DNA of 64,000 bases from Kribbella pratensis (GCF_004365355.1 NZ_SODP01000001.1:1619473-1683472), one strand, 5' to 3'. Counted from the stretch's first letter, positions 13,855 through 38,060 are shown. Translations and numbers: made by a program. The notes: generated from the sequence alone by a model not told the origin.

Positions 13855-14090
13855 CCACCCCACGCCGGTGACCGAACTGCCCAACCCGACCGAAGGTGGT
13901 ACGCGAACCACCTGCCCAACCCACGCGGGTGACCGAACCGCCCGAGTCAACCCAAGGTGGTACGCGAACCGCCCCGCCCAACCGACGCGGGTGACCGACC
14001 GCGGAACCCAACCCAAGCTGGTGAGCGAACTGCGCAACCCAGCCACGGAGCCGAGCGAAGCGAAGGCCCAAGGGGGTGCGGGTGGCGGAG
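13855..14090. repeat. degenerate ~30-bp repeat tract trailing a tRNA-Val gene (copy A)
   Basis: Imperfect units built around AACCCAAGGTGGTACGCGAAC or ACGCGGGTGACCGAACC recur every 30-36 bp with no sustained coding signal. In the direction of tRNA transcription they read GGTTGGGCGGTTCGGTCACC. The same unit type follows the tRNA-Val genes at 22.1 kb and 37.6 kb. The stretch 13854-14184 holds only this tract, a G+C block and the tRNA terminator. Confidence 0.8.
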
Positions 14091-14134
14091 CCCCCGCTTG
14101 CGGCAAGCGAAGCGCAGCCGCACAAAACGACGAA

Positions 14135-14182
14135 GGCGACCCGGTCCGCGCTTTCCGCGGACACGAGTCGCCTATCGCCTTC
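14135..14182 (-). terminator. tRNA-Val cluster terminator (copy A)
   Basis: On the minus strand, GGCGAC-tcgt-GTCCGC-ggaaagc-GCGGAC-cgg-GTCGCC folds as a two-part stem directly after the tRNA. The same structure, with compensatory changes in the inner stem, follows the other tRNA-Val loci. Confidence 0.7.
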
Positions 14183-14184
14183 GT

Positions 14185-14255
14185 GGACGATACTGGGATC
14201 GAACCAGTGACCTCTTCCGTGTCAGGGAAGCGCGCTACCGCTGCGCCAATCGTCC
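14185..14255 (-). tRNA. tRNA-Val (GAC)
   Basis: The 71-nt cloverleaf has acceptor GGACGAT/ATCGTCC, anticodon loop CTGACAC with anticodon GAC and T-arm GGTTCGATCC. No CCA is encoded. It is the last of a Gly-Cys-Val cluster. Confidence 0.95.
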
Positions 14256-14282
14256 GGGAAACTCAAGACTACTGAGGTTCGA

Positions 14283-14352
14283 GGTGGAGACGGGATTCGA
14301 ACCCGTGTAAACGGCTTTGCAGGCCGCTGCCTCGCCTCTCGGCCACTCCACC
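14283..14352 (-). tRNA. tRNA-Cys (GCA)
   Basis: Acceptor GGTGGAG/CTCCACC, anticodon GCA in CTGCAAA, T-arm GGGTTCGAATCC. It is the middle gene of the Gly-Cys-Val cluster. Confidence 0.95.
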
Positions 14353-14382
14353 ACTGAGAAAGCTGGGCCGAACCCTCTCCGA

Positions 14383-14454
14383 GCGGACGACCGGGTTCGA
14401 ACCGGCGACCTCAACCTTGGCAAGGTTGCGCTCTACCAACTGAGCTACGTCCGC
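14383..14454 (-). tRNA. tRNA-Gly (GCC)
   Basis: Acceptor GCGGACG/CGTCCGC, anticodon GCC in TTGCCAA, D-arm TAGCTCAGTTGGTAGAGC. It is the first gene of the cluster; the promoter should lie in 14455-14630, which contains no gene. Confidence 0.95.
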
Positions 14455-21639: not shown

Positions 21640-22000
21640 TCCCCACCCACCACCCCCAAGCCAGCCACCCAACCCAGCCCAACCGATGAGCTCAGCTGCC
21701 CAACCAAGCCCACAAAGCCGAGCGAACCGCCCAACCCAACCCAAGCTGGCGAGCCAACTGCACAATCCAGCCACGGAGGCGAAGTACCCAACTCAACCAA
21801 GCCGGTTGGCGGACTGCCCGACCCAGCCCAAGGTGACCGAACCGCTCAACCCAGCCGAAGGTGGTGAGCGAACTGCATAACCCGACCCAAGCTTGTACGC
21901 GAACCGCTTGCTCAACCCACACCGGTGACCGAATCGCCCGACCCAGCGCAAGCTGGTGAGCGAACTGCAAACCCAGCCACAGCCGCCGAGCGAAGCGAAG
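21640..22000. repeat. degenerate ~30-bp repeat tract trailing a tRNA-Val site (copy B)
   Basis: Units resembling CAACCCAGCCGAAGGTGGTGAGCGAACTG and ACCGGTGACCGAATCGC recur about every 33 bp. The tract lies where the 3' flank of tRNA-Val(CAC) was before the AICE separated it from the gene. No coding signal is present across 21488-22116 beyond this tract, a G+C block and a hairpin. Confidence 0.75.
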
Positions 22001-22067
22001 GCGCAGGGGGTGCGGGTGGCGGAGCCCCCGCCGGCGGCAAGCGGAGCGCAGCCGCACAAAACGACGA

Positions 22068-22110
22068 AGGCGACCCGGCCTGCGCTCTCCGCAGGCACGA
22101 GTCGCCTATC
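22068..22110 (-). terminator. displaced tRNA-Val terminator (copy B)
   Basis: On the minus strand GGCGAC-tcgt-GCCTGC-ggagagc-GCAGGC-cgg-GTCGCC. The inner stem differs from copies A and C at both sides, preserving pairing. It is now 13 kb from its tRNA because the element lies between. Confidence 0.7.
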
Positions 22111-22116
22111 GACTTC

Positions 22117-22159
22117 GTGGGCGATACTGGGTTCGAACCAGTGACCTCTTCGGTGTGAA
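22117..22159. repeat. attL, 43-bp direct repeat
   Basis: This copy is identical to 35429-35471 and corresponds to the tRNA-Val 3' half from the anticodon loop to the acceptor end. The sequence to its right diverges at once into element DNA, leaving a tRNA fragment with no 5' half. It is the displaced chromosomal 3' end. Confidence 0.93.
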
Positions 22160-22272: not shown

Positions 22273-22316
22273 CGGGTCTCGACTAGGTCGCTTCCACTTG
22301 GTGCATGATCTTGTCC

Positions 22317-23270
22317 ATGACTGCCGACTACGAGTTTTCGCTGGAGATCAACTCCATCAGGCTCCGCCTTGAGGAAGCCATCGGCTCGCTAGGCAAACCG
22401 TCGTCGCTCCCTCGTCGCCCAGGCGCTGACCGAATCGCTACCGCCGCCAGTCATCTCAAGGAGGCGATAGGCTTCCGTGACAGTAATGGGCTACCTATCG
22501 CTGAAAAGCTTGATGTAGGCGTTGCCGAGGTCTTCGTTCAGCTGATAGAGGATTTAGCGTCAGCGGACGAGTGGGATGCGGATCGTGCCTTTGACACCGC
22601 GATTCAGCTCGAAAACTTCACAAGAGAACAAATTAGAAGGACTCCTGGGTATCGTACTCACGTCGCAGGTGGTGACGATCCTTATGATGATCTTCGGGCT
22701 CTCGACAAAGAATCAGAGTTCGCCGTTGGAAACATGGACACAGAGCGTCACCTGTTGCAGCAACGGGAGCGTGTCGACGCAATCGTTGATGACGTCCAAC
22801 AGGCGGCTGGTTCGGTGGCTGATAGCGAACTCGCCAAGGCCTTCAGTGCCTACGAGGTTGGTGAAAGGAGATCGGCGAATTACTTCCGCCTCGGCGGTCT
22901 GCTGGTTCTGCTCGGAGTCCTGGGATTCTCCATCTACACGACGATTGAGACTCCGACGACTCTGGCCTCCTCGTTGGCTCATCTCGGCATCGCTTTGTCG
23001 GGTTTGGCTGCGTTCGCATACTTAGCCCGAGAGTCATCGCAACACAGAACCGTTGCCCGCTGGGCGGCGGTCATGGCCGTGCAGCTGAAGACGCTGGCCG
23101 CATTCTCTGCAGATATGGCTCCTCCGCAAAGGGAAGAGTTGCGCTCCTTTTTTGGAAGGCGAGTATTCTCGGAGCTACCTGCTACAGAAAACCGTGAGTC
23201 TGCGAGCGAAACGGCACTGACTGCTCAATCAATAGTCGACATTATCAAGACGGCTCGCGGCGACTCCTGA
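22317..23270 (+). CDS. two-TM membrane protein, AICE cargo
   Basis: About 317 residues; the ATG at 22305 (four residues earlier) is an alternative. An N-terminal helical, charged region (1-190) with long coiled stretches (HLLQQRERVDAIVDDVQQAAG) leads to two membrane helices near 195-215 (FRLGGLLVLLGVLGFSIY) and 222-243 (LASSLAHLGIALSGLAAFAYLA). A cytosolic helical tail follows (HRTVARWAAVMAVQLKTLAAF). The layout recalls two-TM effectors of defence systems, but I recognise no named family. G+C is visibly lower than in the neighbouring chromosome. It is convergent with the ApeA-like gene. Confidence 0.7.
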   Translation: MTADYEFSLEINSIRLRLEEAIGSLGKPSSLPRRPGADRIATAASHLKEAIGFRDSNGLPIAEKLDVGVAEVFVQLIEDLASADEWDADRAFDTAIQLENFTREQIRRTPGYRTHVAGGDDPYDDLRALDKESEFAVGNMDTERHLLQQRERVDAIVDDVQQAAGSVADSELAKAFSAYEVGERRSANYFRLGGLLVLLGVLGFSIYTTIETPTTLASSLAHLGIALSGLAAFAYLARESSQHRTVARWAAVMAVQLKTLAAFSADMAPPQREELRSFFGRRVFSELPATENRESASETALTAQSIVDIIKTARGDS

Positions 23271-23401
23271 TCGACGCTGGTGTGACCAGATTTACGTTCG
23301 CGGCAGAGAGGTGCACACAGGATCGCGGGCTACTTCTCTAAACGCGTCCAGAGGAACGAATATGCTCGCGGCATCGCCCATGGCTGATCGCTAGGGCTGG
23401 A

Positions 23402-24844
23402 TCATTCGCGCTGGGCGATGCGGATCTGCTCGACGGCATGTTGAAATGGAGCTTTCTGGAGCACTCGTTCCACGACTTCCGCGAGAGGAACGCCGAGTTG
23501 GAGAAGTAGGCAAGCGCGTAAGACCCAGCTCAGGACGACGCCATGCCAGTAACGAGCCACGCTGTCCGGCCTCTCAGACGAGCTGCTGCCACCATGTGCA
23601 ACTCCCGTTCGCGCATTCGCGGCCGCCCGGGCGAAGGTTGGAGCTGCGTCAAGGATGGCGTCACCCACGGCGCCCGTGGACTTGACTAGCTCATCGATTC
23701 TGAGCCAGAGGGGTTTGTAGTTTGCTGCCTGGAGGACTCGACGCGCCCAATCGCTTATCTCCTGCGAACCGCCACTGCTGTCAATGGCTGCAATCACATC
23801 CTGCACCCGCTTCTTGTGGGTTGCCGGGTCGAGTTCGCGCGAATCGAAGCGCCTCTTGTGAAACGCCTCAGCGCTCTGGAATATCGATGCAAAGCGATTC
23901 TCGGTGTACATAAATGGCGCATAATGGGGAGCGTGAAGCAACACGAAGGTCTCCCGGAGGTCGCTCCATAACTCGAACCACTGTCGTAGCAGGTCGTCAA
24001 TTGGCAGCGGGCACCACCGTACGCTCAGGAGTGACGGCTCGGAATAGCTCCATGGCGAGTTGCGGGAAGTTGGTTTGGCATCGTCGGTTGGCTGAATCGC
24101 GTTGAGGTACGCGTCGCAGTAGCGACCATTTTCTAGTGCCGGTCGAAGCATCAGCGATGTCAACTGCACCGAACGTCCAAGGCTAAAAATCAGCAGGTCT
24201 TGCAGAGGCCGCACACGCGTGTCGACGATGGTTCTAGCGTTGGCGGGCTGTCCCATCTCTATAGCAAATGCTGAGAATTGGTCGAAATGGATTGACTGAC
24301 TGCTGCGCGAGCCCTGGACGCCGGTCTCTAGCCGTAGCGAGTCGCCGTTGATGTTCGCATGCGCCAAGGTCAGTGGTTCGAGGCGAACACTAGCGGCGAT
24401 CCTGTTGGTGATTTGACTTTCATCTGGCTCATTGGACGATGGATTTATGATTATCGACGGCGCGTCCGACCAGCTATTTAGCTGGTCAAACTCGATCATC
24501 GCGCCTGAGAAGTCGTCGGCGGGCGCGTGGCATCCAATAAGGGCGAGGGTTACGCGATAGCTCTCTCTGGTTTCACCGGGTACAGGCCCGGCATAATTCG
24601 CGCCATTGGCCTCAAAAACGGTGACATCTTTCCAGTCTCGAGTCCTGCCATGGATTAGCGGAGTAACCGTCCACTCTGGTGGGCCATATGCGACGACCTC
24701 GTTATCGGCGGGCATCGGATATTCCCGCAGTTGCCCATGCAAGACCAATTCCAGGCCGTCGGCGGTGTGGCTTAGGGTCCCGCTGACACGGTGATTCTCG
24801 CTCTCTGGTAGCCACCAGTCACCTTCTACGGAAAAGTGCTCCAC
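23402..24844 (-). CDS. ApeA-like HEPN anti-phage protein
   Basis: A 480-residue protein whose N terminus (VEGDWWLPES...VSGTLSHTADGLELVLHG) matches the style of the ApeA N-terminal domain and whose C-terminal third is HEPN-like, with R-x4-H in NARTGVAHGG (about 412-417), the RNase motif of HEPN domains. The middle contains LRQWFELWSDLRETFVLL and FMYTENRFASIFQSAEAFHKRRF, typical of the same group. ApeA is an established single-gene anti-phage system in E. coli. The start is GTG at 24844. It lies 33 bp downstream of the flavoprotein gene on the same strand, so XRE, flavoprotein and ApeA could share one transcript. Low G+C marks it as cargo. Confidence 0.8.
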   Translation of the reverse strand: MEHFSVEGDWWLPESENHRVSGTLSHTADGLELVLHGQLREYPMPADNEVVAYGPPEWTVTPLIHGRTRDWKDVTVFEANGANYAGPVPGETRESYRVTLALIGCHAPADDFSGAMIEFDQLNSWSDAPSIIINPSSNEPDESQITNRIAASVRLEPLTLAHANINGDSLRLETGVQGSRSSQSIHFDQFSAFAIEMGQPANARTIVDTRVRPLQDLLIFSLGRSVQLTSLMLRPALENGRYCDAYLNAIQPTDDAKPTSRNSPWSYSEPSLLSVRWCPLPIDDLLRQWFELWSDLRETFVLLHAPHYAPFMYTENRFASIFQSAEAFHKRRFDSRELDPATHKKRVQDVIAAIDSSGGSQEISDWARRVLQAANYKPLWLRIDELVKSTGAVGDAILDAAPTFARAAANARTGVAHGGSSSSERPDSVARYWHGVVLSWVLRACLLLQLGVPLAEVVERVLQKAPFQHAVEQIRIAQRE

Positions 24845-24877
24845 CGCGACAGGATGCCACGTGTGTACTCGTTCGAG

Positions 24878-25405
24878 TCACAGTTGGTGAAAGATCCACT
24901 CCCACTGGAATACTTCCGTGACATCGTCACCGGTGCCGGACGCCACCGGTTCCAGCGCCCGTGTTGAGCCGTCATGTGGATCGACGATTGTCACGCCCGC
25001 GTAGCGGAGAACTGCTAGGGAGGCGAGCCACGCAGGATGGCCGGCCAGGTCGTGTTTGGCGAAAGGAGTTGCGACGATCGGCGTGCGAGCGCCTAGAGCC
25101 GCAGAGAGGATTGTCAGCGGGTAGGTGTTGGCGTTTCCGTTGGCCAAGGCGTTGAGAGTGTTGAAGGTCATCGGTACGACGACGACGGCGTCGGCCGGCG
25201 GGGTGCGCTTTGGCTGGTCTGGGGTGCGGTTGCCGGTGATGACGGGGGCACCTCCTAGGTCCTGGTCCGCCAGCCAGGGCATGGCCGCGTCGGTGGGGAT
25301 GACGTGAGGGTCCCAGCCATTGGCCCGGGCGGCTTTGACGCCGTCGCCAGCTCGTGCAGCGAGGGGAGCGCCACAGACGACGATGTAGAGGGTGCGGTTG
25401 GTCAC
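24878..25405 (-). CDS. flavoprotein (Dfp/LanD-like fold)
   Basis: A 175-residue Rossmann-like flavin-binding protein. Landmarks are LYIVVCGAPLAA at the start, ADAVVVVPMTFNTLNALANG (near 73-92), the central flavoprotein signature with the Asn-rich loop, and PIVATPFAKHDLAGHPAW near 110. It is related to phosphopantothenoylcysteine decarboxylases but too short for that role. The GTG start overlaps the stop of the XRE regulator (GTGA). XRE-flavoprotein pairs recur in actinobacterial AICEs and are thought to be regulatory; the mechanism is unknown. Confidence 0.83.
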   Translation of the reverse strand: MTNRTLYIVVCGAPLAARAGDGVKAARANGWDPHVIPTDAAMPWLADQDLGGAPVITGNRTPDQPKRTPPADAVVVVPMTFNTLNALANGNANTYPLTILSAALGARTPIVATPFAKHDLAGHPAWLASLAVLRYAGVTIVDPHDGSTRALEPVASGTGDDVTEVFQWEWIFHQL

Positions 25406-26601
25406 GCGAGGACTCCTGCGCGGGTGGCGATAGCGGTCAGGGATGGGCTGGGCTTGCGGGAGCGGCGTAGGAGTTCGCGGACCAGCTCGCGGGCGATGGT
25501 GTGGTATTTGATCGACTCGGGCGCTACGCGCTCGGCTGCCTGGAGATGGAGGATCGCTTCCGTGTCGTTCTTGGCTTGGGTTTGCGCCCATGCCAGGTCG
25601 ATGTGGAGGCGGGATCGTCGGCCTTGGAGTCCGGCCGGCATAGCGTCCAGGTCGATTTCCGTGGCTACTCGCAGCACGTTGGACGGCTCGCCGAACTCCG
25701 CTGCGACTGACGCGCGGTGGATCAGGACGTTGGTCGGCCCGAACGCGGTCCACCAGTGGTTCCCGTCGTGCGCCAGGAAGTCTCCGAGCTGTCCGGCTGC
25801 CGTCAGCCGTTCGGTTGCCGTCGCGCGGTCTGACCGACGCGCAGCGATAACCGACGAGATGAGCCAGAGGGAACCGGCGAGCGACACCGCGTCCGGTGCG
25901 TCTGAGCCGGTCATCGACATGAGACCTTCGGCCGATCGGACCGCGATCCGTTCCGCGTCGTCGGTGCGCTCGCTGCGGAGCAGGGCACAGACGACCTGGT
26001 AGGCCGCGAGGCCCTGCGCGGCCTTGGACTCGGCGGCCATGGCGGCGTGAGTGGCGCGGTCGGCAGCGAGCCAGCCGAGCTGGTGCTCGCCGACCTTCGT
26101 GAGGAGCTTGGCGGCGGCCGAGTAGACCGAGCACCGGGCAAGGTGCGTCTCCCGGCCGTCGCGGCCCTGGTAGGCGTCGTACGCGTCCGCGGCCCGGATG
26201 AGGTCTGGGAGCATCGTCGTGGCCGTGTGGTACTTGGCAGCCTGGTATGCCTGGTGGACCTGCACAGCGCCGTTCCGGAGCTGGGGGAGCGGCCATGGCA
26301 TCGCCTGCTCGCCCAGTAGGTGGTGGTAGCCCGCGAGTTGACTTCGTACGGCGTCGACGGCCGTCACGTGCTCTGGCGCATCGGGTGCGAGCACCCAGTC
26401 CCGGCCGATCAGGTCGGCGACGTCGATGCGCAGGACGGTTGCTAGGTCGTTCAGGGTGGACAGTCGATCGACACCACGAATGCCGCGCTCGACCTGCGAC
26501 AGCCAGGAGCGCGACATTCCGATGAGTCCCGCCAGGGCGTCTTGCGACATACCGCGTCGCTTGCGGTAGGCCCCGATGCGCTCACCTACGTGCATCTGCA
26601 C
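25402..26601 (-). CDS. XRE-family regulator with TPR-like domain
   Basis: A 399-residue protein. The N-terminal helix-turn-helix is RIGAYRKRRGMSQDALAGLIGMSRSWLSQVERG (about 8-40); the remainder is helical repeat, the usual sensor half of this actinobacterial family (related to RRNPP-type or BldD-like regulators in layout only). ATG at 26601 or 26595 is possible; GAGGGGA lies upstream. It heads the XRE-flavoprotein-ApeA string. Two TGCGCA sites spaced 12 bp apart (26654, 26666) in its upstream region are candidate operators, suggesting autoregulation and control of element functions. Confidence 0.85.
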   Translation of the reverse strand: MQMHVGERIGAYRKRRGMSQDALAGLIGMSRSWLSQVERGIRGVDRLSTLNDLATVLRIDVADLIGRDWVLAPDAPEHVTAVDAVRSQLAGYHHLLGEQAMPWPLPQLRNGAVQVHQAYQAAKYHTATTMLPDLIRAADAYDAYQGRDGRETHLARCSVYSAAAKLLTKVGEHQLGWLAADRATHAAMAAESKAAQGLAAYQVVCALLRSERTDDAERIAVRSAEGLMSMTGSDAPDAVSLAGSLWLISSVIAARRSDRATATERLTAAGQLGDFLAHDGNHWWTAFGPTNVLIHRASVAAEFGEPSNVLRVATEIDLDAMPAGLQGRRSRLHIDLAWAQTQAKNDTEAILHLQAAERVAPESIKYHTIARELVRELLRRSRKPSPSLTAIATRAGVLA

Positions 26602-26653: not shown

Positions 26654-26671
26654 TGCGCAAAAAAGTGCGCA
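26654..26671. promoter_or_regulatory. paired TGCGCA sites upstream of the XRE gene
   Basis: TGCGCA, itself palindromic, occurs at 26654-26659 and 26666-26671, 12 bp apart. Two more intergenic copies lie at 26998-27003 and 27028-27033, in front of the oppositely oriented small genes. Confidence 0.45.
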
Positions 26672-27394: not shown

Positions 27395-27633
27395 GCCGCC
27401 GACGCATGGTCACGCTGGAACAGAGCTGGGCTGACCGGCTGGGTGTTGAGTCCCCGGCTGACATTCACCGCGAGCTGGACGCTCGGCTCGCCGCCCTCGT
27501 GACCGCTGTGCGCGGTGACGTTCCACCGACTGGTTCGGCTGAGCACGCCGTGCGCTATGGCGACCTGCTGGAGCTGGCTGCGTTCCTCACCGACGCCCGC
27601 ACTGTCCTGCTGGGCAAGGAGGTTCAGCGATGA
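27391..27633 (+). CDS. small hypothetical AICE protein
   Basis: An 80-residue soluble helical protein (LEQSWADRLGVESPADIHRE, LLELAAFLTDARTVLLG). It overlaps both neighbours by ATGA, so it is translationally coupled within the transfer operon. No family recognised and no catalytic residues evident. Confidence 0.65.
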   Translation: MSRRRMVTLEQSWADRLGVESPADIHRELDARLAALVTAVRGDVPPTGSAEHAVRYGDLLELAAFLTDARTVLLGKEVQR

Positions 27634-28412
27634 GCACCCCGCTTCGTACGACGTACCCGGTGCCGGTGGAAGACCTGATCCCGGCTGCCCGCAAGCTTGC
27701 TGACGAGCTGGGTTCGGTGCCGTCGCGGAACCGGATCATGAAGGAGTTCCGGATCGGCGCGGACAAGGCCCGCTCGGTCCTCGACGCCCTCACCGCAGAA
27801 CCGCACCTGCACGCGGTGCCCGATCAGGCCGCCCCTGGGCATGGCGTGGGTGCGGTGGAGATGCCCCCCGCGCCGGAGGAGGGGGCATCTCCGCAGGTCA
27901 CGCCGCCTGTAGACCCGGCTCCGACCGCTCAGGCCGCGCCCTCTGAGGTTGTTCCCGCGGCTTCGGCCGAGGAGGTCAAGCCGGTCCGATCCTGGCCGGT
28001 CCTCCTGCTCGCGTTGCCCGCGTTTGTGGCGGTCTGGTCCGGCTGGGTCGGACTCGGGGAGCTGACCGGGTTCGGGGTGGTACACCCGCTACCGGGGATC
28101 GCGGACGGGTTCACCATCAACTCTGCAATCACGCTGCCGATCGGAGTTGAGACCTACGCCGCCTTCGCGCTGCGGGTGTGGCTGTCCGGCCGCGTCCCGG
28201 CCCGGGCTCGCCGGTTCGCCAAGTGGTCGGCGCTGTCCGCGCTCGGTCTGGGTGCGCTGGGGCAGGTCGCCTATCACCTGCTGGAGGCCGCTGGGGTCAC
28301 CCGCGCGCCGTGGCAGATCACCACCGTCGTTGCCTGCCTGCCGGTCGCTGTGCTCGGCATGGGCGCCGCCCTGGCCCACCTGATCCACACTCGCGAGAAC
28401 GGGGAGAAGTGA
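27630..28412 (+). CDS. DUF2637-like spread membrane protein
   Basis: A 260-residue protein. A winged-helix-like N-terminal segment (YPVPVEDLIPAARKLADELGSVPSRNRIMKEF, about 9-40) is followed by a Pro/Ala-rich linker and four membrane helices (about 117-138, 155-178, 190-212, 222-242). Similar proteins, often annotated DUF2637 or Spd, accompany the FtsK-like translocase of AICEs and Streptomyces plasmids and help intramycelial spread. The N-terminal DNA-binding-like part is unusual for a spread protein and may link DNA to the membrane. Two bases separate it from the next gene. Confidence 0.7.
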   Translation: MSTPLRTTYPVPVEDLIPAARKLADELGSVPSRNRIMKEFRIGADKARSVLDALTAEPHLHAVPDQAAPGHGVGAVEMPPAPEEGASPQVTPPVDPAPTAQAAPSEVVPAASAEEVKPVRSWPVLLLALPAFVAVWSGWVGLGELTGFGVVHPLPGIADGFTINSAITLPIGVETYAAFALRVWLSGRVPARARRFAKWSALSALGLGALGQVAYHLLEAAGVTRAPWQITTVVACLPVAVLGMGAALAHLIHTRENGEK

Positions 28413-28413
28413 C

Positions 28414-30618
28414 ATGACTGAGCCGATGAACAACGAGCTGCCCAAGCCGATCGACCTGGACGCGCGCCGCGCTCGCCGCGATGACACGCAGGCTCCGGAC
28501 GAGTTGGCCGGCGCGATGGTGCCACTGTCGCCGTCCGAGGTGGAGCGGATGGACACCGCCTACGAGATCGCCCTGGACGACGCCGACGACGACCCGGCCA
28601 CCGGGAACGTGCTGGTGCCGGTGGACACGCCGGGACTGGCGCTGCCGGTGCAGGAGGGCGCGCGGATCCCGATCATCCCGGTGCACCTGCGGCCGGGGAA
28701 CCTGCGCGGCACGATCCGCCGCGCGCTCGCGAGGACCGGGCATGTGGCCGCCTTCCACGCGGTCCGCTCGCCTTGGTACACAGCCAAGTTCGGCTGGTTC
28801 GCCGGTCGCGGCCTGGGCCGCCTGGTCGGCAACCAACTGCGGTGGTGGTGGGTGCCGAACTCCTATCTGCTGGAGCAGAAGGCCGCCGACGCGGGCGAGC
28901 TGAAGGAGTGGGAGAAGATCCACCGCCAGCTCAAGGCAACCCGGATGTGGCGCGGTGGCGTGCTGGCCGTGCAGAACCTGGGCCTGCTGATCGGTGCGCC
29001 GATCCTCTACAGCTCGGCACCTGGTGCTGCCCTGGTCGCCGCTGGCGCACTCGCGACGGCGGGTCTGGCGCACTACGGCCGCCCGGCCGGGCAGACGATC
29101 GTGGGCACGGCCGTGGTCGCGCCCCGGTACCGCAAGCTCACCGCAGACATCGTCCTGCGCGCCTACTACGCGGCCGGTCTCGGCAACCCCGACCGCCAAG
29201 ACCAGCAGGTCACGTTCGGGTCGATCATGTCGCGCGACAGCTCCGACACCGGAACGCAGGTGATCATCGATCTGCCGTGGGGCAAGTCCTGGTCGGACGT
29301 GTTGAAGTCGCGGGAGAAGATCGCCTCCGGCCTGGACGTGCACATGCGGCAGGTGTTCCTGACCGAGGACGACTCCTCGTCTCGCCGGCACGTGCTGTTC
29401 GTCGCCGACCGCGACCCCCTCGCCATCCCGGCCGGTCGCACGGACATGCTCGACGGTAAGCCGCGTTCGATCTGGGAGCCGATGCGACTCGGCAAGGACG
29501 AGCGAGACCGCCTGGTCGAGCTGTCGCTGATGTGGTTCTCGGTCCTGGTCGGCGCGCAGCCGCGCAAGGGCAAGACGTTCACCGCGCGCCTGGTCGCGCT
29601 GCACGCCGCGCTGGACCCGTGGGTGAAGCTGATCGTTGTCGACGGCAAGAAGTCGCCGGACTGGCTCGGGTTCCGCAAGGTCGCGCACCGGATGGTGTTC
29701 GGCGAGCTGCCGAACCCGCTGGACGACGACCCGATCGGGCACCTGCTGGCCGTCCTGGACGAGGTGCTCGACCACATCGACAAGGTCAACGCCAAGCTCA
29801 CGTCGCTGCCGGTGGATGAGTGCCCGGACGGCAAGCTCACGCCGCAGCTGGCCCGTGACCGGCGCTATCCGGAGCTGCGGGTGATGGTGTTGGTGATGGA
29901 GGAGTTTCAGGTGTACTTCGAGACCGCGAGCCAGGAGGTGAACAAGCAGGTCGCGGACAAGCTGTCCAAGATCCTGGCGATCGGCCCGAGTGCTGGCGTG
30001 ATCTTGGTGTCCAGCTCGCAGAAGCCGTCCGGTGTCGGCGCGGGTGACGTGCAGCGGCTGTTCAACCGGTTCCGCGACAACCACACCATCCGGTTCGCGC
30101 TCAAGTGCGGCAACCGGGACGTGTCGATGGCCGTGCTCGGTGGCGACGCCTACGCCGAAGGCTACGACGCGTCCTCGCTGCCGGTCGGGGACAAGTTCCG
30201 GGGCGTCGGCTACCTGTACGGCGCGAGCGACCACACGCCGACCGTGCGCGGGTTCCTTGCCGACGGCAAGGACGCGGACAAGATCCTCGACGCCGCCCGC
30301 AAGCACCGCGAACGACTCGGCACCCTGTCCGGCGCGGCCGTGGGCGAGGAGCTGGAGCGCGCCAGCCGCGACGTGCTGGCCGACGTCCTGACCGTGCTCG
30401 GTGCCGACACCGCCGCGCACTGGGAGGCGATCGCCGGACGGCTGGCCGAGCAGATGCCCGAGCAGTACGACGGCACCACCCCGGACGCGGTCAGCGCGCA
30501 GGCCCGCGCGCTGCACGTGCCGAGCCGCGACGTGAAGCGCGACGGCGTGAACCGTAAGGGCTGCCGCGCAGACGACATCCGCGCCGCGATCGACCGGAGA
30601 GAGACCGCCGGCCACTGA
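28414..30618 (+). CDS. FtsK/SpoIIIE-like conjugative DNA translocase (TraSA/TraB type)
   Basis: A 734-residue ATPase expected to move double-stranded element DNA between mycelial cells. A cytoplasmic N-terminal region is followed by a membrane segment pair near 185-225 (VQNLGLLIGAPILYSS, GAALVAAGALATAGLAHYG), then the motor. Walker A is GAQPRKGKT near 385 and Walker B MVLVMEEF near 495. The C terminus (QARALHVPSRDVKRDGVNRKG) resembles the winged-helix gamma domain that reads DNA. Translocases of this class recognise clustered short repeats (TRS/clt); the GTAGCG cluster starts about 50 bp after its stop. Confidence 0.9.
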   Translation: MTEPMNNELPKPIDLDARRARRDDTQAPDELAGAMVPLSPSEVERMDTAYEIALDDADDDPATGNVLVPVDTPGLALPVQEGARIPIIPVHLRPGNLRGTIRRALARTGHVAAFHAVRSPWYTAKFGWFAGRGLGRLVGNQLRWWWVPNSYLLEQKAADAGELKEWEKIHRQLKATRMWRGGVLAVQNLGLLIGAPILYSSAPGAALVAAGALATAGLAHYGRPAGQTIVGTAVVAPRYRKLTADIVLRAYYAAGLGNPDRQDQQVTFGSIMSRDSSDTGTQVIIDLPWGKSWSDVLKSREKIASGLDVHMRQVFLTEDDSSSRRHVLFVADRDPLAIPAGRTDMLDGKPRSIWEPMRLGKDERDRLVELSLMWFSVLVGAQPRKGKTFTARLVALHAALDPWVKLIVVDGKKSPDWLGFRKVAHRMVFGELPNPLDDDPIGHLLAVLDEVLDHIDKVNAKLTSLPVDECPDGKLTPQLARDRRYPELRVMVLVMEEFQVYFETASQEVNKQVADKLSKILAIGPSAGVILVSSSQKPSGVGAGDVQRLFNRFRDNHTIRFALKCGNRDVSMAVLGGDAYAEGYDASSLPVGDKFRGVGYLYGASDHTPTVRGFLADGKDADKILDAARKHRERLGTLSGAAVGEELERASRDVLADVLTVLGADTAAHWEAIAGRLAEQMPEQYDGTTPDAVSAQARALHVPSRDVKRDGVNRKGCRADDIRAAIDRRETAGH

Positions 30619-31564: not shown

Positions 31565-31705
31565 CGAGACAGCTCCGGCGCTGTGTGCTTCAACGCCGGA
31601 ACCTGGCGAGTCGTGGGTACGGCCGCACCCGCGTTCGCGTACCGCACAGGTACCCGACGCAGACCCCACCAACCAGCCCCGATCGCCCTCGAGGAGGACA
31701 ACCCG

Positions 31706-32575
31706 ATGAATGACCTGCTGACCGCCGCCCTGGACGCTGCCGAACGTGGCTGGCCGGTGTTCATGCTCGGTCGCTCCAAGCGCCCAGTTGCCAACTGCCA
31801 GCTCTGCCGCGACGAGCCGCACGACCCAGAGAGCTGCTGGCACCTGACCTGCCACGGCTTCTACGCCGCCAGCACTGACCCGGCCCGCGTCGCCGCGATC
31901 GTCGCGGCTGTACCGGCCGGACAGCTCGCCGTCCGTACCGGTGCCGTCTCCGGGCTGCTGGTGGTCGACATAGATCCCGATCACGGAGGCAACGGCAGCT
32001 TCGCGACCCTGATCGCCCGCCGATGGGTGCCGCGCACCCTGAACGTTCGGACCGGTTCATGGGGAACGCACCTGTACTACCGCCACCCCGGCCAGCACGT
32101 GCCGTCGCGGCCGATGCCGGGATTCAAGGGGATCGACATCAAGGCAGACGGCGGGTACGTCGTCCTCCCGCCGTCGACCCATCACCGCACCGGCCGCCCG
32201 TACCGGTGGGACGAGTACGGGCCGACCGAACCGGCTGAGATGCCCCCCGCTCTCGTCACCGCTTGCCTGCCTCCACCGGCCACCCCCGTGCCATGCGCCG
32301 GCCAAATCGCCACCGAGCAGGGCGGGGGCATCTCCCACCCTGACCGGCTGCTGAGCGCGCACCTGGACGCTGTCCGGAACGCACCCGAAGGCAAGCGCCG
32401 TACGACGCTCTACGGCGCCGCGAGGGGCGTTGCGCGGATGGTCGCGGCCGGTGCGATCAAGCACGCCGACGCGATCGCCGCGTTGACCGACGTAGGGCAG
32501 CAAGCCGAGCAGACCACCCGCGACATTCGAGCCGCCATTGCCGGTGGCTTCCGTGACGAAGGGATTGCCGCATGA
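31706..32575 (+). CDS. bifunctional DNA primase/polymerase (replication initiator part)
   Basis: A 289-residue prim-pol domain protein that primes element replication. Active-site motifs are LLVVDIDPDHGG near 86 (metal-binding Asp pair), GSWGTHLYYRH near 117 and GIDIKADGGYVVLPPS near 140. The Cys/His-containing N-terminal part (CQLCRDEPHDPESCWH) is usual in AICE versions. GGAGG lies before the ATG at 31706. It overlaps the DUF3631 gene by ATGA, so the primase and ATPase halves of the Rep function are separate but coupled polypeptides. Confidence 0.9.
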   Translation: MNDLLTAALDAAERGWPVFMLGRSKRPVANCQLCRDEPHDPESCWHLTCHGFYAASTDPARVAAIVAAVPAGQLAVRTGAVSGLLVVDIDPDHGGNGSFATLIARRWVPRTLNVRTGSWGTHLYYRHPGQHVPSRPMPGFKGIDIKADGGYVVLPPSTHHRTGRPYRWDEYGPTEPAEMPPALVTACLPPPATPVPCAGQIATEQGGGISHPDRLLSAHLDAVRNAPEGKRRTTLYGAARGVARMVAAGAIKHADAIAALTDVGQQAEQTTRDIRAAIAGGFRDEGIAA

Positions 32576-33867
32576 CCACCCCGACCGACACCACGCCCGA
32601 GCAGATCGACGGTGCCGAGCTGCTGGACGACGTGGCCGACACCATCGCGCGATACGTCGTCCTGCCGAGCACGTCCGCCGCGATCGCCGTCGTGCTGTGG
32701 ATCGCCGCCACGCACGCCGTACCGGCTTGGAACTGCGCGCCCCGCTTGGTCATCCGGGCACCCGAACGACGCTGCGGAAAGTCCCGGCTACTCGACATGG
32801 TGGAAGGTATGAGCCACCGGCCGTTGATGACTGTCAACGCCAGCCCGTCAGCGGTCTACCGATCCATCGGGGTCGCGCCGAACGATCCGCCGACGCTGCT
32901 GATCGATGAAGCCGACACGATCTTTGGCCCGAAGGCGGGGGAGAACGAGGACCTACGCGGCCTGCTCAATGCCGGTCACCAGCGCGGCCGTCCAGCCCTG
33001 CGGTACGACGCAGGAAGCCGGTCGGTGGAGAAGATCGCCACGTTCGCTATGGCTGCCCTGGCAGGGATCGGCGCGATGCCGGACACCATCGAGGACCGCG
33101 CCGCCGTCATCCGCATGCGCCGTCGCGCACCCGGCGAGAAGGTTGCCCCCTACCGCGTCGGCCGCGATGGTCCCGAGCTGGACGAGCTGCGTCAACGACT
33201 CAACCAGTGGCTCACCTGCCACATCAAGATCCTGCGGGCCGCGACGCCGGACATGCCGCTGGAAGACCGGGCCGCTGACACCTGGGAGCCGATGATCGCC
33301 GTTGCCGACCTGGCAGGCGGGCAGTGGCCCCGAGCCGCCAGGAAGGCCGCTGTAGCGCTCACCAGCGACCGTGACGCGGGCGACGAGGGTTCGATCCCGA
33401 CCCGGCTGCTGGCTGACTGCCGGACCGCGTTCCAGGACGCCGACGCGCTGCCGACACAGATCCTGTTGGACCGGCTCCGCAGCGATGCGGAAGCGCCCTG
33501 GGCAACGATGGGCGCGGCCGGACTCACGGCGATGCGGATGGGCAACCTGCTGCGCGAGTTCGAGATCCGCAGCGACACCATCCGGTTCCCGACCGGGCAA
33601 GCGAAGGGCTACCACCGCAGCGATTTCGCCGACGCGTGGAACCGCTACTGCCCCGAGCCAAAACCGGCCGGTGGGGAAGCCGTACCAGCCGTACCAGACG
33701 TAACACTGCAGGTCAGCCCCGGTACGGCTTCCATCCCTGGTACGGCTCAAGCCGTACCAACCACCCAAGCCTCATCGACCCTGACCAGCGAAAACGAGGC
33801 TGGTACGGCTGGTACGCCTTGGCCCCTCCGAGCTGTCAGCGCCGACTCGACCTCTGGAGCCGCATGA
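32572..33867 (+). CDS. DUF3631 ATPase/helicase-like replication protein
   Basis: A 431-residue protein paired with the prim-pol. A P-loop variant APERRCGKSRLL lies near 62-72 and Walker B TLLIDEADTIFG near 106, with the DUF3631 domain continuing to about 365. It probably unwinds DNA at the element origin. The C-terminal 65 residues are a low-complexity linker of repeated AVP and GTA triplets, encoded by a cluster of GGTACGGCT repeats that looks like an iteron array. The stop overlaps the excisionase start. Confidence 0.88.
   Translation: MTTPTDTTPEQIDGAELLDDVADTIARYVVLPSTSAAIAVVLWIAATHAVPAWNCAPRLVIRAPERRCGKSRLLDMVEGMSHRPLMTVNASPSAVYRSIGVAPNDPPTLLIDEADTIFGPKAGENEDLRGLLNAGHQRGRPALRYDAGSRSVEKIATFAMAALAGIGAMPDTIEDRAAVIRMRRRAPGEKVAPYRVGRDGPELDELRQRLNQWLTCHIKILRAATPDMPLEDRAADTWEPMIAVADLAGGQWPRAARKAAVALTSDRDAGDEGSIPTRLLADCRTAFQDADALPTQILLDRLRSDAEAPWATMGAAGLTAMRMGNLLREFEIRSDTIRFPTGQAKGYHRSDFADAWNRYCPEPKPAGGEAVPAVPDVTLQVSPGTASIPGTAQAVPTTQASSTLTSENEAGTAGTPWPLRAVSADSTSGAA
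33678..33818. repeat. GGTACGGCT iteron-like cluster
   Basis: Six copies of GGTACGGCT or its complement AGCCGTACC (33678, 33687, 33721, 33739, 33750 and 33802) and a variant GGTACGCCT (33811) occupy 140 bp inside the 3' end of the DUF3631 gene, in both orientations. The spacing includes two adjacent direct copies 9 bp apart. Confidence 0.6.
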
Positions 33868-34155: not shown

Positions 34156-35367
34156 ATGGGCTACGTCCGAAAGACCCCCGCTGGAAGCTGGAAAGCCTGC
34201 TGGCGTGATGCGACCGGCCGCCAACCGTCGAAGACCTTCCCGACTCGCCGGGAGGCGTCCGCCTTCCTGGCCACGATCGAATCAACCAAGCACACCGGTA
34301 CGTACGTCGATCCGCACGCTGCACGACGCATCAAGTTCAGCACCTACGCCGCGCAGTGGATTGAGTCGCACAACGTCGAGCTGACGACGCGGGCACGTGA
34401 TCTGTCCTTGCTCAAGAACCACGTGGTCGCGCACTGGGCTAACGCTCCGCTATCTGCGATCGACCATTCGTCGGCACAGAAGTGGATCACCAGCCTTTCC
34501 CGTCAGCTATCGCCGTCAACCGTTGGTGAGTGCAACCGTCTGTTCAGTGCTGTCCTGAAGACTGCTGTCCGCGATCGGCTGATCGCAGTGAACCCCGCCA
34601 AGGACGTACGACTACCGAAGAAGCGGCAGCAGGCGGGGGACAGGCAGACGATCAGTCGGGAGGAGTTCACCACCCAACTCCTCCCGGCCGTGCCCGAGCG
34701 GCACCGTGCGATCGTTGCCCTTGCTGGCGGAACTGGTCTGCGGTGGGGCGAGTGCGTCGGACTCCGGTGGGAGTCGGTCGACCTAATGGCCGGCACTCTG
34801 CGAGTCGAGCGCGTGGCGGTTGAGGTCAACGGTCACGTGACCCCGAAGCCCTACCCAAAGTCGCGAGCCGGGAGGCGCGTCGTACCGGTCCCGCCGATGG
34901 TGGGTCGACTCCTGGAGGAGTACCGCGAGCTGTACGGAACCGGTCAGGCGGGGGAGGTGTTCATCAACGAGGCGGGCACCCCATTGCGTCGGACACTCTT
35001 CCGGTCGCGGATCTGGCGGCCGTCGCTCGTGCGGGCCGGACTGCTGGGCTGGGTCGTGCAGGAGGGTGAGAAGTTCCGGGGCACCTGGCCGACACCGGCT
35101 GGGGATGAGACCGAGCTGTTCAAGACGAAGGCACAGGCTGTGAAGGCGGTCTCGCGCCACGCGGAAGGTGGACTGCGGTTCCACGACCTCCGGCACTCGT
35201 ACGCGTCATGGCTGATCACCTCGGGCGTGCCGGTTCCCGACGTACAGCGGGTCATGGGGCACGAGCGGCCGACGACGACGCTGGCCATCTACACACACGT
35301 CCAGGGAGGCTCCCAAGAGCGGGTCCTAGGGGCTCTTGCTGCCTTTTCGCTGCCTGACGAGGGCTGA
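34156..35367 (+). CDS. int: tyrosine-type integrase
   Basis: A 403-residue site-specific recombinase. An N-terminal arm-binding domain (WKACWRDATGRQPSKTFPTRREA) and a SAM-like core-binding domain (about 60-150) precede the catalytic domain. Catalytic residues are Arg in GGTGLRWGE (near 197), HDLRHSYASW (near 339-348), the second His in MGHERPTT (near 366) and the Tyr nucleophile in LAIYTHV (near 377). It lies 61 bp from attR, as in pSAM2-type elements. The insert near 300-325 (WPTPAGDETELFKTKAQAV) is unusual in length. Confidence 0.93.
   Translation: MGYVRKTPAGSWKACWRDATGRQPSKTFPTRREASAFLATIESTKHTGTYVDPHAARRIKFSTYAAQWIESHNVELTTRARDLSLLKNHVVAHWANAPLSAIDHSSAQKWITSLSRQLSPSTVGECNRLFSAVLKTAVRDRLIAVNPAKDVRLPKKRQQAGDRQTISREEFTTQLLPAVPERHRAIVALAGGTGLRWGECVGLRWESVDLMAGTLRVERVAVEVNGHVTPKPYPKSRAGRRVVPVPPMVGRLLEEYRELYGTGQAGEVFINEAGTPLRRTLFRSRIWRPSLVRAGLLGWVVQEGEKFRGTWPTPAGDETELFKTKAQAVKAVSRHAEGGLRFHDLRHSYASWLITSGVPVPDVQRVMGHERPTTTLAIYTHVQGGSQERVLGALAAFSLPDEG
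35338..35354. repeat. candidate integrase arm site, right
   Basis: The second copy of GCTGCCTTTTCGCTGCC lies within the last codons of int. See the left copy at 22256-22272. Confidence 0.4.
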
Positions 35368-35410: not shown

Positions 35411-35428
35411 GACCTGCGTGTTCTTCGG

Positions 35429-35471
35429 GTGGGCGATACTGGGTTCGAACCAGTGACCTCTTCGGTGTGAA
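35429..35471. repeat. attR, 43-bp direct repeat
   Basis: Identical to 22117-22159. It forms the 3' half of the complete tRNA-Val gene, so the element restores the tRNA on integration. Confidence 0.93.
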
Positions 35472-35501
35472 CGAAGCGCGCTACCACTGCGCCAATCGCC
35501 C
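35431..35501 (-). tRNA. tRNA-Val (CAC), integration target
   Basis: The 71-nt cloverleaf has acceptor GGGCGAT/ATCGCCC, anticodon loop TTCACAC with CAC and T-arm GGTTCGAACC. Its 5' half is chromosomal and its 3' half is supplied by attR. Confidence 0.95.
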
Positions 35502-37344: not shown

Positions 37345-37416
37345 GCGGACGTAGCTCAGTTGGTAGAGCGCAACCTTGCCAAGGTTGAGGTCGCCGGTTC
37401 GAACCCGGTCGTCCGC
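37345..37416 (+). tRNA. tRNA-Gly (GCC), second copy
   Basis: The sequence is identical over its length to the copy at 14383-14454 (opposite strand), anticodon GCC. Confidence 0.95.
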
Positions 37417-37478
37417 TCGGAGAGGGTTCGGCGGGCCTACTTCTCAGTGCCAGCTTTCTCAATGCCAGCTTACTCAGT

Positions 37479-37548
37479 GGTGGAGTGGCCGAGAGGCGAG
37501 GCAACGGCCTGCAAAGCCGTGTACACGGGTTCGAATCCCGTCTCCACC
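37479..37548 (+). tRNA. tRNA-Cys (GCA), second copy
   Basis: Near-identical to 14283-14352 (one arm change, GCAACGGCC against GCAGCGGCC, and GTGTAC against GTTTAC). Anticodon GCA. Confidence 0.95.
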
Positions 37549-37555
37549 TCGAGAA

Positions 37556-37582
37556 CCTCAGGTCAAACTGAGGGGTTTCTTT
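37556..37582 (+). terminator. hairpin between tRNA-Cys and tRNA-Val
   Basis: CCTCAG-gtcaaa-CTGAGG followed by GGTTTCTTT has the form of an intrinsic terminator inside the tRNA cluster. The copy at 14 kb lacks it. Confidence 0.55.
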
Positions 37583-37653
37583 GGACGATTGGCGCAGCGG
37601 TAGCGCGCTTCCCTGACACGGAAGAGGTCACTGGTTCGATCCCAGTATCGTCC
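37583..37653 (+). tRNA. tRNA-Val (GAC), second copy
   Basis: Identical to the minus-strand copy at 14185-14255, anticodon GAC. Confidence 0.95.
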
Positions 37654-37655
37654 AC

Positions 37656-37704
37656 GAAGGCGATAGGCGACTCGTGTCCGCGGAAAGCGCGGACCGGGTC
37701 GCCT
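37656..37704 (+). terminator. tRNA-Val cluster terminator (copy C)
   Basis: GGCGAC-tcgt-GTCCGC-ggaaagc-GCGGAC-cgg-GTCGCC, the same structure as copies A and B, directly after the tRNA. Confidence 0.7.
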
Positions 37705-37777
37705 TCGTTGTGTTGTGCGGCTGCGCTTCGCTTGCCGCCGGCGGGGGCTCCGCCACCCGCACCCCCTGCGCCTTCGC

Positions 37778-38060
37778 TTCGCTCGGCGGCTTGGGACGGG
37801 TTGGGCGAGCGGCTCACCGGCTTGGGTTGGGTTCGGCGGTCAGTTCACCAGTGTGGGCTGGGTCGAGCCGTTCGCTCGGCGGTTTGGGTTGGGTTGGGCG
37901 GGCGGCTCACCGGCTTGGGCTGGGCTCGGCGGTCAGTTCACCAGTGTGGGCCGGGTGGAGCAGTTCGTTCGGCGGTTTGGCTTGGGTTGGGCGGGGCGGC
38001 TCAGCGGCTCGGGCTGGGCTCGGCCAGTTCACCAGTTTGGCGTGGGTGTTGACCCAGTCG
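37778..38060. repeat. tandem ~96-bp repeat tract trailing tRNA-Val (copy C)
   Basis: Two and a half copies of a 96-bp unit run head to tail, each made of three degenerate sub-units of the GGTTGGG...GTTCGCTCACC type (landmarks GGCTCACCGGCTTGGG, GTCAGTTCACCAGTGTGGG, GTTCGCTCGGCGGTTTGGG). It belongs to the same family as tracts A and B but is more regular. There is no coding gene across 37654-38028. Confidence 0.8.

Follow-up and report, generated by a model that had tools for sequence, protein, structure and literature searches.

Does an ApeA-like HEPN gene that stands in line with the regulatory gene pair of an actinomycete integrative and conjugative element (AICE) form a defence operon with that pair, or is it exchangeable cargo lying next to it? 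The question is raised by a stretch of Kribbella pratensis DNA of 64,000 nucleotides (GCF_004365355.1, NZ_SODP01000001.1:1619473-1683472; the whole stretch is referred to as the window), in which genes for an XRE-type regulator, a flavoprotein and an ApeA-like protein follow one another. A first-pass annotation had suggested that they may work together as a mobile defence operon, production of ApeA being timed by the XRE protein. From sequence comparisons we conclude that apeA is probably a stand-alone anti-phage gene that forms part of the exchangeable AICE cargo between the regulator-enzyme pair and the integrase-distal attachment (att) site, and that a dedicated XRE-flavoprotein-apeA defence operon is not supported.

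By its domain content the gene at 23402-24844 (minus strand, GTG start, 480 amino acids (aa)) encodes a full-length ApeA. Both Pfam models were matched well above their curated cut-offs, PF18862 (ApeA_NTD1) at residues 6-289 with 73.9 bits (cut-off 25.5, E = 1.9e-20) and PF18739 (HEPN_Apea) at residues 320-453 with 52.3 bits (cut-off 24.4, E = 1e-13), and the PADLOC model PDC-S58 spans the whole protein (residues 1-474, E = 2.4e-33); the 'Cas13-ApeA' models of PADLOC gave a weak match to the HEPN part (5e-8). The initial call of an ApeA-like HEPN gene, for which a search with the ApeA N-terminal and HEPN models had been proposed as a check, thus holds over the full length. The R-x4-H motif noted at the same time is present in the HEPN domain as R412-TGVA-H417. 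As the protein contains five matches to R-x(4-6)-H, the motif on its own proves little and was dropped as stand-alone evidence; the weight rests on the invariance of R412, H417 and the acidic residue E326 in an alignment of nine ApeA homologues that are 17-40% identical. HEPN families with an R-x4-6-H motif are predicted, or have been shown, to be metal-independent RNases (PMC3710099). In an AlphaFold2 model of ApeA (mean pLDDT 78.9, pTM 0.77) the N-terminus is rich in beta structure and the C-terminus entirely helical. No solved structure related by sequence was found among PDB chains, and a Foldseek search with the model gave no match of useful TM-score. A profile search detected the ApeA-type HEPN in a single copy in this genome.

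All three open reading frames (ORFs) lie on the minus strand at the positions first reported. The XRE regulator (25402-26601, 399 aa) matches HTH_31 with 51.3 bits (cut-off 27) and has a long C-terminal region, and its stop is overlapped by 4 bp by the start of the flavoprotein gene (24878-25405, GTG start at 25405), which in a mechanical ORF list is enclosed in a longer ORF, 24878-26296. The flavoprotein matches PF02441 (36.7 bits, cut-off 22.7); its identification as a true CoaC/phosphopantothenoylcysteine decarboxylase was rejected, as 27.2 bits against a CoaBC/CoaC equivalog cut-off of 219.7 indicate similarity at the level of the fold only. As annotated, apeA follows the flavoprotein gene on the same strand after 33 bp (24845-24877). 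A scan of the minus strand of this gap found neither a terminator nor a sigma-70-like promoter, the gap holds no XRE palindrome, and inspection by eye revealed no clear Shine-Dalgarno sequence ahead of the apeA GTG. An attenuator or terminator was ruled out because the bulged hairpin of 4-7 bp in the gap is weak, lacks a T-run and shows no folding advantage over shuffled sequences (z = -1.2). Given that neither a promoter nor a terminator was detected between the two genes, transcription could read through into apeA from the XRE promoter. The candidate XRE operator, TGCGCACTTTTTTGCGCA, is located upstream of XRE at 26654-26671 (minus strand). The palindrome, TGCGCAC-TTTT-(G/T)TGCGCA, is recognisable in all 11 aligned regions upstream of XRE, and 26654-26671 is its sole match in the window, with 0.11 expected by chance. 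No copy was found before or near apeA, a loosened pattern gave only chance-level matches, and a second XRE operator near apeA was dropped as the window holds no further copy.

We then asked how the three genes are arranged elsewhere. In a sample of 38 genomes of Kribbella, 395 of its class and 396 of its phylum, the XRE-flavoprotein-ApeA order was not seen a second time. ApeA is rare, being detected by profile search in 2 of the Kribbella genomes, 8 of those of the class and 8 of those of the phylum, and at every ApeA locus examined (more than 15) an adjacent XRE-flavoprotein pair was absent. A peptide pattern revealed no close ApeA relatives among genome contigs and no ApeA was found in phages. 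On plasmids, ApeA was encountered twice in Streptomyces (35-36% identity), in both cases with no annotated flavoprotein adjacent, and once as a partial haloarchaeal match. The flavoprotein is widespread (123 of the 395 class genomes, 78 plasmid records).

XRE orthologues that are 85-97% identical, with a flavoprotein gene adjoining, occur at ten other loci among the 38 Kribbella genomes. At these ten loci DNA homology with the window is lost at the 3' end of the flavoprotein gene or no more than about 120 bp from it. Beyond this point (loci are given by our L numbers) L145 carries a DUF5677 gene followed by a CBASS cyclase (6e-116) and a Cap15 effector, L140 a TrlF/Ppl-like ATPase of 928 aa, L137 and L139 a DEAH/ResIII helicase of 1077-1078 aa, L141 an ATPase matching PDC-M55A (1.9e-61), and L142, duplicated as L143, an AriA/PtuA-like ATPase whose partner weakly resembles RloB/AriB, whereas DUF6119 follows at L144, unmatched proteins at L136 and L146, and ordinary chromosomal genes at L138. 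The first gene downstream has the orientation of the pair in the window, L141, L145 and L146, and the reverse orientation in L136-L140, L142 and L144. As the order was not found elsewhere, the dedicated three-gene operon was dropped as the best reading, and the proposal that XRE times ApeA within such a unit loses its footing, with the order seen once and ten orthologous pairs followed by other genes. Two observations had been named as speaking jointly against that proposal: lack of co-occurrence, in other AICEs or elsewhere, is what we found, while a promoter and terminator within 24845-24877 were not found. The XRE-flavoprotein pair can also occur outside the element; at L138 and L144 it was seen without an AICE backbone, beside a shared cassette encoding proteins of about 86, 275-282 and 150 aa. 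XRE-linked ApeA, in turn, occurs elsewhere with a different enzyme: in a distant actinomycetote (L165, 5702-7889) genes for an XRE protein, an ImmA/IrrE-like peptidase (PF06114, 2.6e-16) and ApeA abut on one strand, the peptidase gene directly preceding apeA.

Related elements without XRE-flavoprotein have a different regulator-enzyme pair at the same place, namely GntR+HAD (L147, L148), XRE+HD with a YfbR-like HD protein (L149, L150), a DUF5919 regulator with an inositol phosphatase (L152), and GntR+GNAT (L153-L155 and, outside Kribbella, L127 and L132). The regulator-enzyme combination resembles a replaceable module. Across L127, L129, L130, L132, L147-L150 and L152-L155 the partner enzyme of the AICE regulator varies by branch and includes kinase-like and oxidoreductase-like proteins. 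We located att repeats in tRNA genes for eight of these sister elements. In L147 the slot from the pair to the integrase-distal att contains Pycsar (PycC 1.7e-96, PycTM 9.9e-28) and the methyl-directed nuclease mREase_II (6.6e-213); that of L148 encodes a ThsB-type protein (3.3e-63) together with a TIR and a 2TM protein. PDC-M34B (7e-61) and a type III restriction enzyme (7e-22) lie beyond the pairs of L149 and L155, respectively, elements whose outer ends were not placed. Type I restriction genes were seen in L125, outside Kribbella. In a control comparison, proteins of at least 100 aa encoded in the slots of nine bounded elements were set against those encoded outside the elements. PADLOC matches at E ≤ 1e-10 were obtained for 10 or more of the 26 proteins from slots versus 1 of the 53 from outside, and five of the nine slots contain a match (window, L137, L145, L147, L148). 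ApeA lies inside an AICE, sister elements have different defence systems at that position, and the notion of mobile defence put forward in the first-pass annotation is well founded.

The AICE context suggested there is likewise supported, and the element can now be bounded. It comprises 13.3 kb delimited by exact 43-bp repeats (43/43 identical) in tRNA-Val, the integrase-distal copy lying at 22117-22159 (plus strand) within the 3' part of a tRNA-Val and the integrase-side copy at 35429-35471 (plus strand) inside tRNA-Val(CAC), 35428-35501; the sister element L137 is bounded by a corresponding 46-bp repeat. Adjoining the tRNA-Val is a tyrosine-recombinase integrase gene (34156-35367, plus strand), whose product matches Int/XerD-type recombinases in the PDB (best 3e-9) and has counterparts 91-96% identical in L139 and L137. 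Composition changes along the element, the GC content being about 0.64-0.72 in the backbone and only 0.55-0.60 at 22500-25000. GC content at third codon positions (GC3) is 0.64 in apeA and 0.60 in the gene at 22305-23270, versus 0.75-0.93 in flavoprotein, XRE and backbone, with XRE (0.82) and flavoprotein (0.75) being backbone-like. By base composition apeA and the neighbouring 22305-23270 cargo are foreign-looking.

If apeA is a free-standing cargo gene, XRE and flavoprotein would be the AICE's own regulatory pair, probably autoregulated via the palindrome at 26654-26671, and apeA may be expressed by read-through from the XRE promoter or from a weak promoter of its own. Most likely, phage infection would give rise to an activating small molecule; the beta-rich N-terminal domain of ApeA may bind or sense this infection product, upon which the HEPN domain would cleave RNA, probably in dimeric form, so that the infected cell would halt before phage release, protecting both its kin and the element. 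With activation being post-translational, ApeA could be made constantly, and neither tight transcriptional control nor a dedicated repressor would be needed. Activation of ApeA by deoxydinucleotides is announced in the title of a 2026 preprint cited in PMC13405049.

Several points weigh against apeA being free-standing cargo in a defence slot. Because the gap has no terminator and apeA is in line with the flavoprotein gene, transcriptional coupling of the two to some degree is likely. The slots come from about 17 Kribbella loci picked by homology, with limited sampling beyond the genus, and a recognised defence gene is lacking in the slots of L136, L146 and L150-L154. Moreover, the Fisher p of 3e-5 for the PADLOC comparison is optimistic, since genes of one slot or system are non-independent; for this reason and because of the choice of loci by homology the enrichment is indicative. 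Coupling would agree with a regulated operon in which XRE represses xre, flavoprotein gene and apeA from one promoter, the flavoprotein responds to a change in redox state or in a metabolite, and ApeA rises on derepression during infection or excision of the element. The shared strand, the 4-bp overlap and the 33-bp gap without detected terminator or promoter fit this arrangement, as do the palindrome kept at the XRE promoter, which suggests autoregulation, and the parallel in L165, where small XRE and peptidase genes stand immediately before apeA. We nevertheless regard it as unlikely, as the order was seen once and something other than apeA follows each of the ten orthologous pairs, frequently in the opposite orientation, as the GC3 of apeA is unlike that of the pair, and as apeA has neither a clear Shine-Dalgarno sequence nor a preceding palindrome. 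Unlikely, too, is a more general version, in which a DNA-binding regulator and a small metabolite-type enzyme together form a plug-in control module of Kribbella AICEs. Placed between conserved backbone and swappable defence slot, this module would read the metabolic state of the cell and set the activity of the element and, by read-through, the level of in-line cargo such as apeA.

The cargo including ApeA might also be directed at rival mobile elements (incoming AICEs, plasmids) instead of phages, or act as an addiction system that penalises loss of the element. The CBASS, Pycsar, Thoeris and ApeA families, however, are established anti-phage systems, and apeA has no antitoxin gene as its neighbour, the gene at 22305-23270 being convergent with it and having a homologue in L153 without an adjacent ApeA. 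We therefore consider these possibilities very improbable, even though the cargo is housed in a conjugative element, restriction-type genes in sister slots act on any incoming DNA, and conjugal immunity encoded by an AICE is known for Pif of pSAM2 (PMC3218068).

The gene at 22305-23270 (plus strand) encodes a protein of 321 aa with two hydrophobic segments at about residues 194-241, and its 45% identical homologue is located at the outer edge of the Kribbella AICE locus L153. Assignment as a SLATT effector was dropped as the SLATT_4 match is non-significant (E = 0.14); the two-TM protein is a candidate for an unrecognised defence effector. On the other side of the pair the backbone continues on the plus strand with a gene for a 260-aa protein (27630-28412) and that of a putative FtsK/TraB-like P-loop ATPase of 734 aa (28414-30618). 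The latter is 71-97% identical in sister elements, 96% to its K. turkmenica counterpart, and this putative translocase is common to 17 of the 38 Kribbella genomes. Its P-loop GAQPRKGKT and a VMEEF motif were spotted by eye, and no relatives were found in Pfam or the PDB, so the FtsK/TraB label derives from motifs and synteny. Putative replication genes (31583-33867, plus strand), for which Rep and Prim serve as labels only, are kept in synteny with sister AICEs. Three tRNA-Val genes or remnants in the window are each followed by a copy of a repeat of about 370 bp with 80-83% identity (21797-22156, 13860-14222 and 37616-37991), one copy forming the flank of the integrase-distal att, and a tRNA cluster Gly-Cys-Val(GAC) is present twice in opposite orientations, at 14183-14454 (minus strand) and 37345-37655 (plus strand).

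The Kribbella case adds to known kinds, ApeA and AICE-borne defence, and its main interest is the slot to which it points. A guess at a one-off operon is replaced by a testable general feature, a fixed exchange position in a family of actinobacterial conjugative elements at which ApeA, CBASS, Pycsar, Thoeris-like, restriction and ATPase systems appear to be exchanged and for which the regulator-enzyme pair is an easy marker. The slot could serve the search for new defence genes, with the unmatched genes of L136, L146 and L150-L154 and the gene at 22305-23270 as candidates. In L136 (11985-15114) and L146 (11131-14981) slot genes of lowered GC content, the largest encoding 803 aa, have no PADLOC match, and the three largest have no Pfam match either; these genes may represent new defence systems. 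Why the small-molecule enzymes that accompany AICE regulators are so varied is a further question to which the Kribbella case gives rise.

Compared with known systems, ApeA resembles PADLOC PDC-S58, a single-gene phage defence candidate, in its full-length match. To our knowledge, PDC-S58 is a candidate family without a known mechanism. In the papers searched we found no description of this Kribbella slot or of ApeA in an AICE; for actinobacterial mobile elements in general, defence systems are on record (PMC10482375). With the ApeA/BMEI1217 family (Anantharaman 2013, PMC3710099; PF18862 and PF18739) the protein shares both domains in the same order, the R-x4-H motif and the acidic residue, but it is only 17-40% identical to homologues from genomes, and its gene lies behind an XRE-flavoprotein pair in an AICE and not in a restriction operon. 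The L165 string likewise has XRE and enzyme genes directly upstream of apeA on one strand, but there the enzyme is a peptidase instead of a flavoprotein, the XRE protein is different and much shorter (116 aa), and ApeA is about 23% identical. The element itself is like pSAM2 and the Streptomyces and Frankia AICEs (PMC3218068, PMC9513070) in its tRNA site, direct repeats, tyrosine integrase, XRE/GntR regulators and variable cargo, which in Streptomyces includes restriction and phage-resistance genes and a flavoprotein (PMC9513070). The combination of a regulator with small metabolite-type enzymes recalls KorSA/Pif of pSAM2, where the Nudix protein Pif acts in conjugal immunity, and the mdp-nud-xre cluster (PMC3218068). 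In contrast to mdp-nud-xre, the enzyme in Kribbella pratensis has a flavoprotein fold and is a HAD, HD, inositol-phosphatase or GNAT protein in sister elements, and the defence slot beside the regulator-enzyme pair of the Kribbella family is not among the AICE features described in the papers searched.

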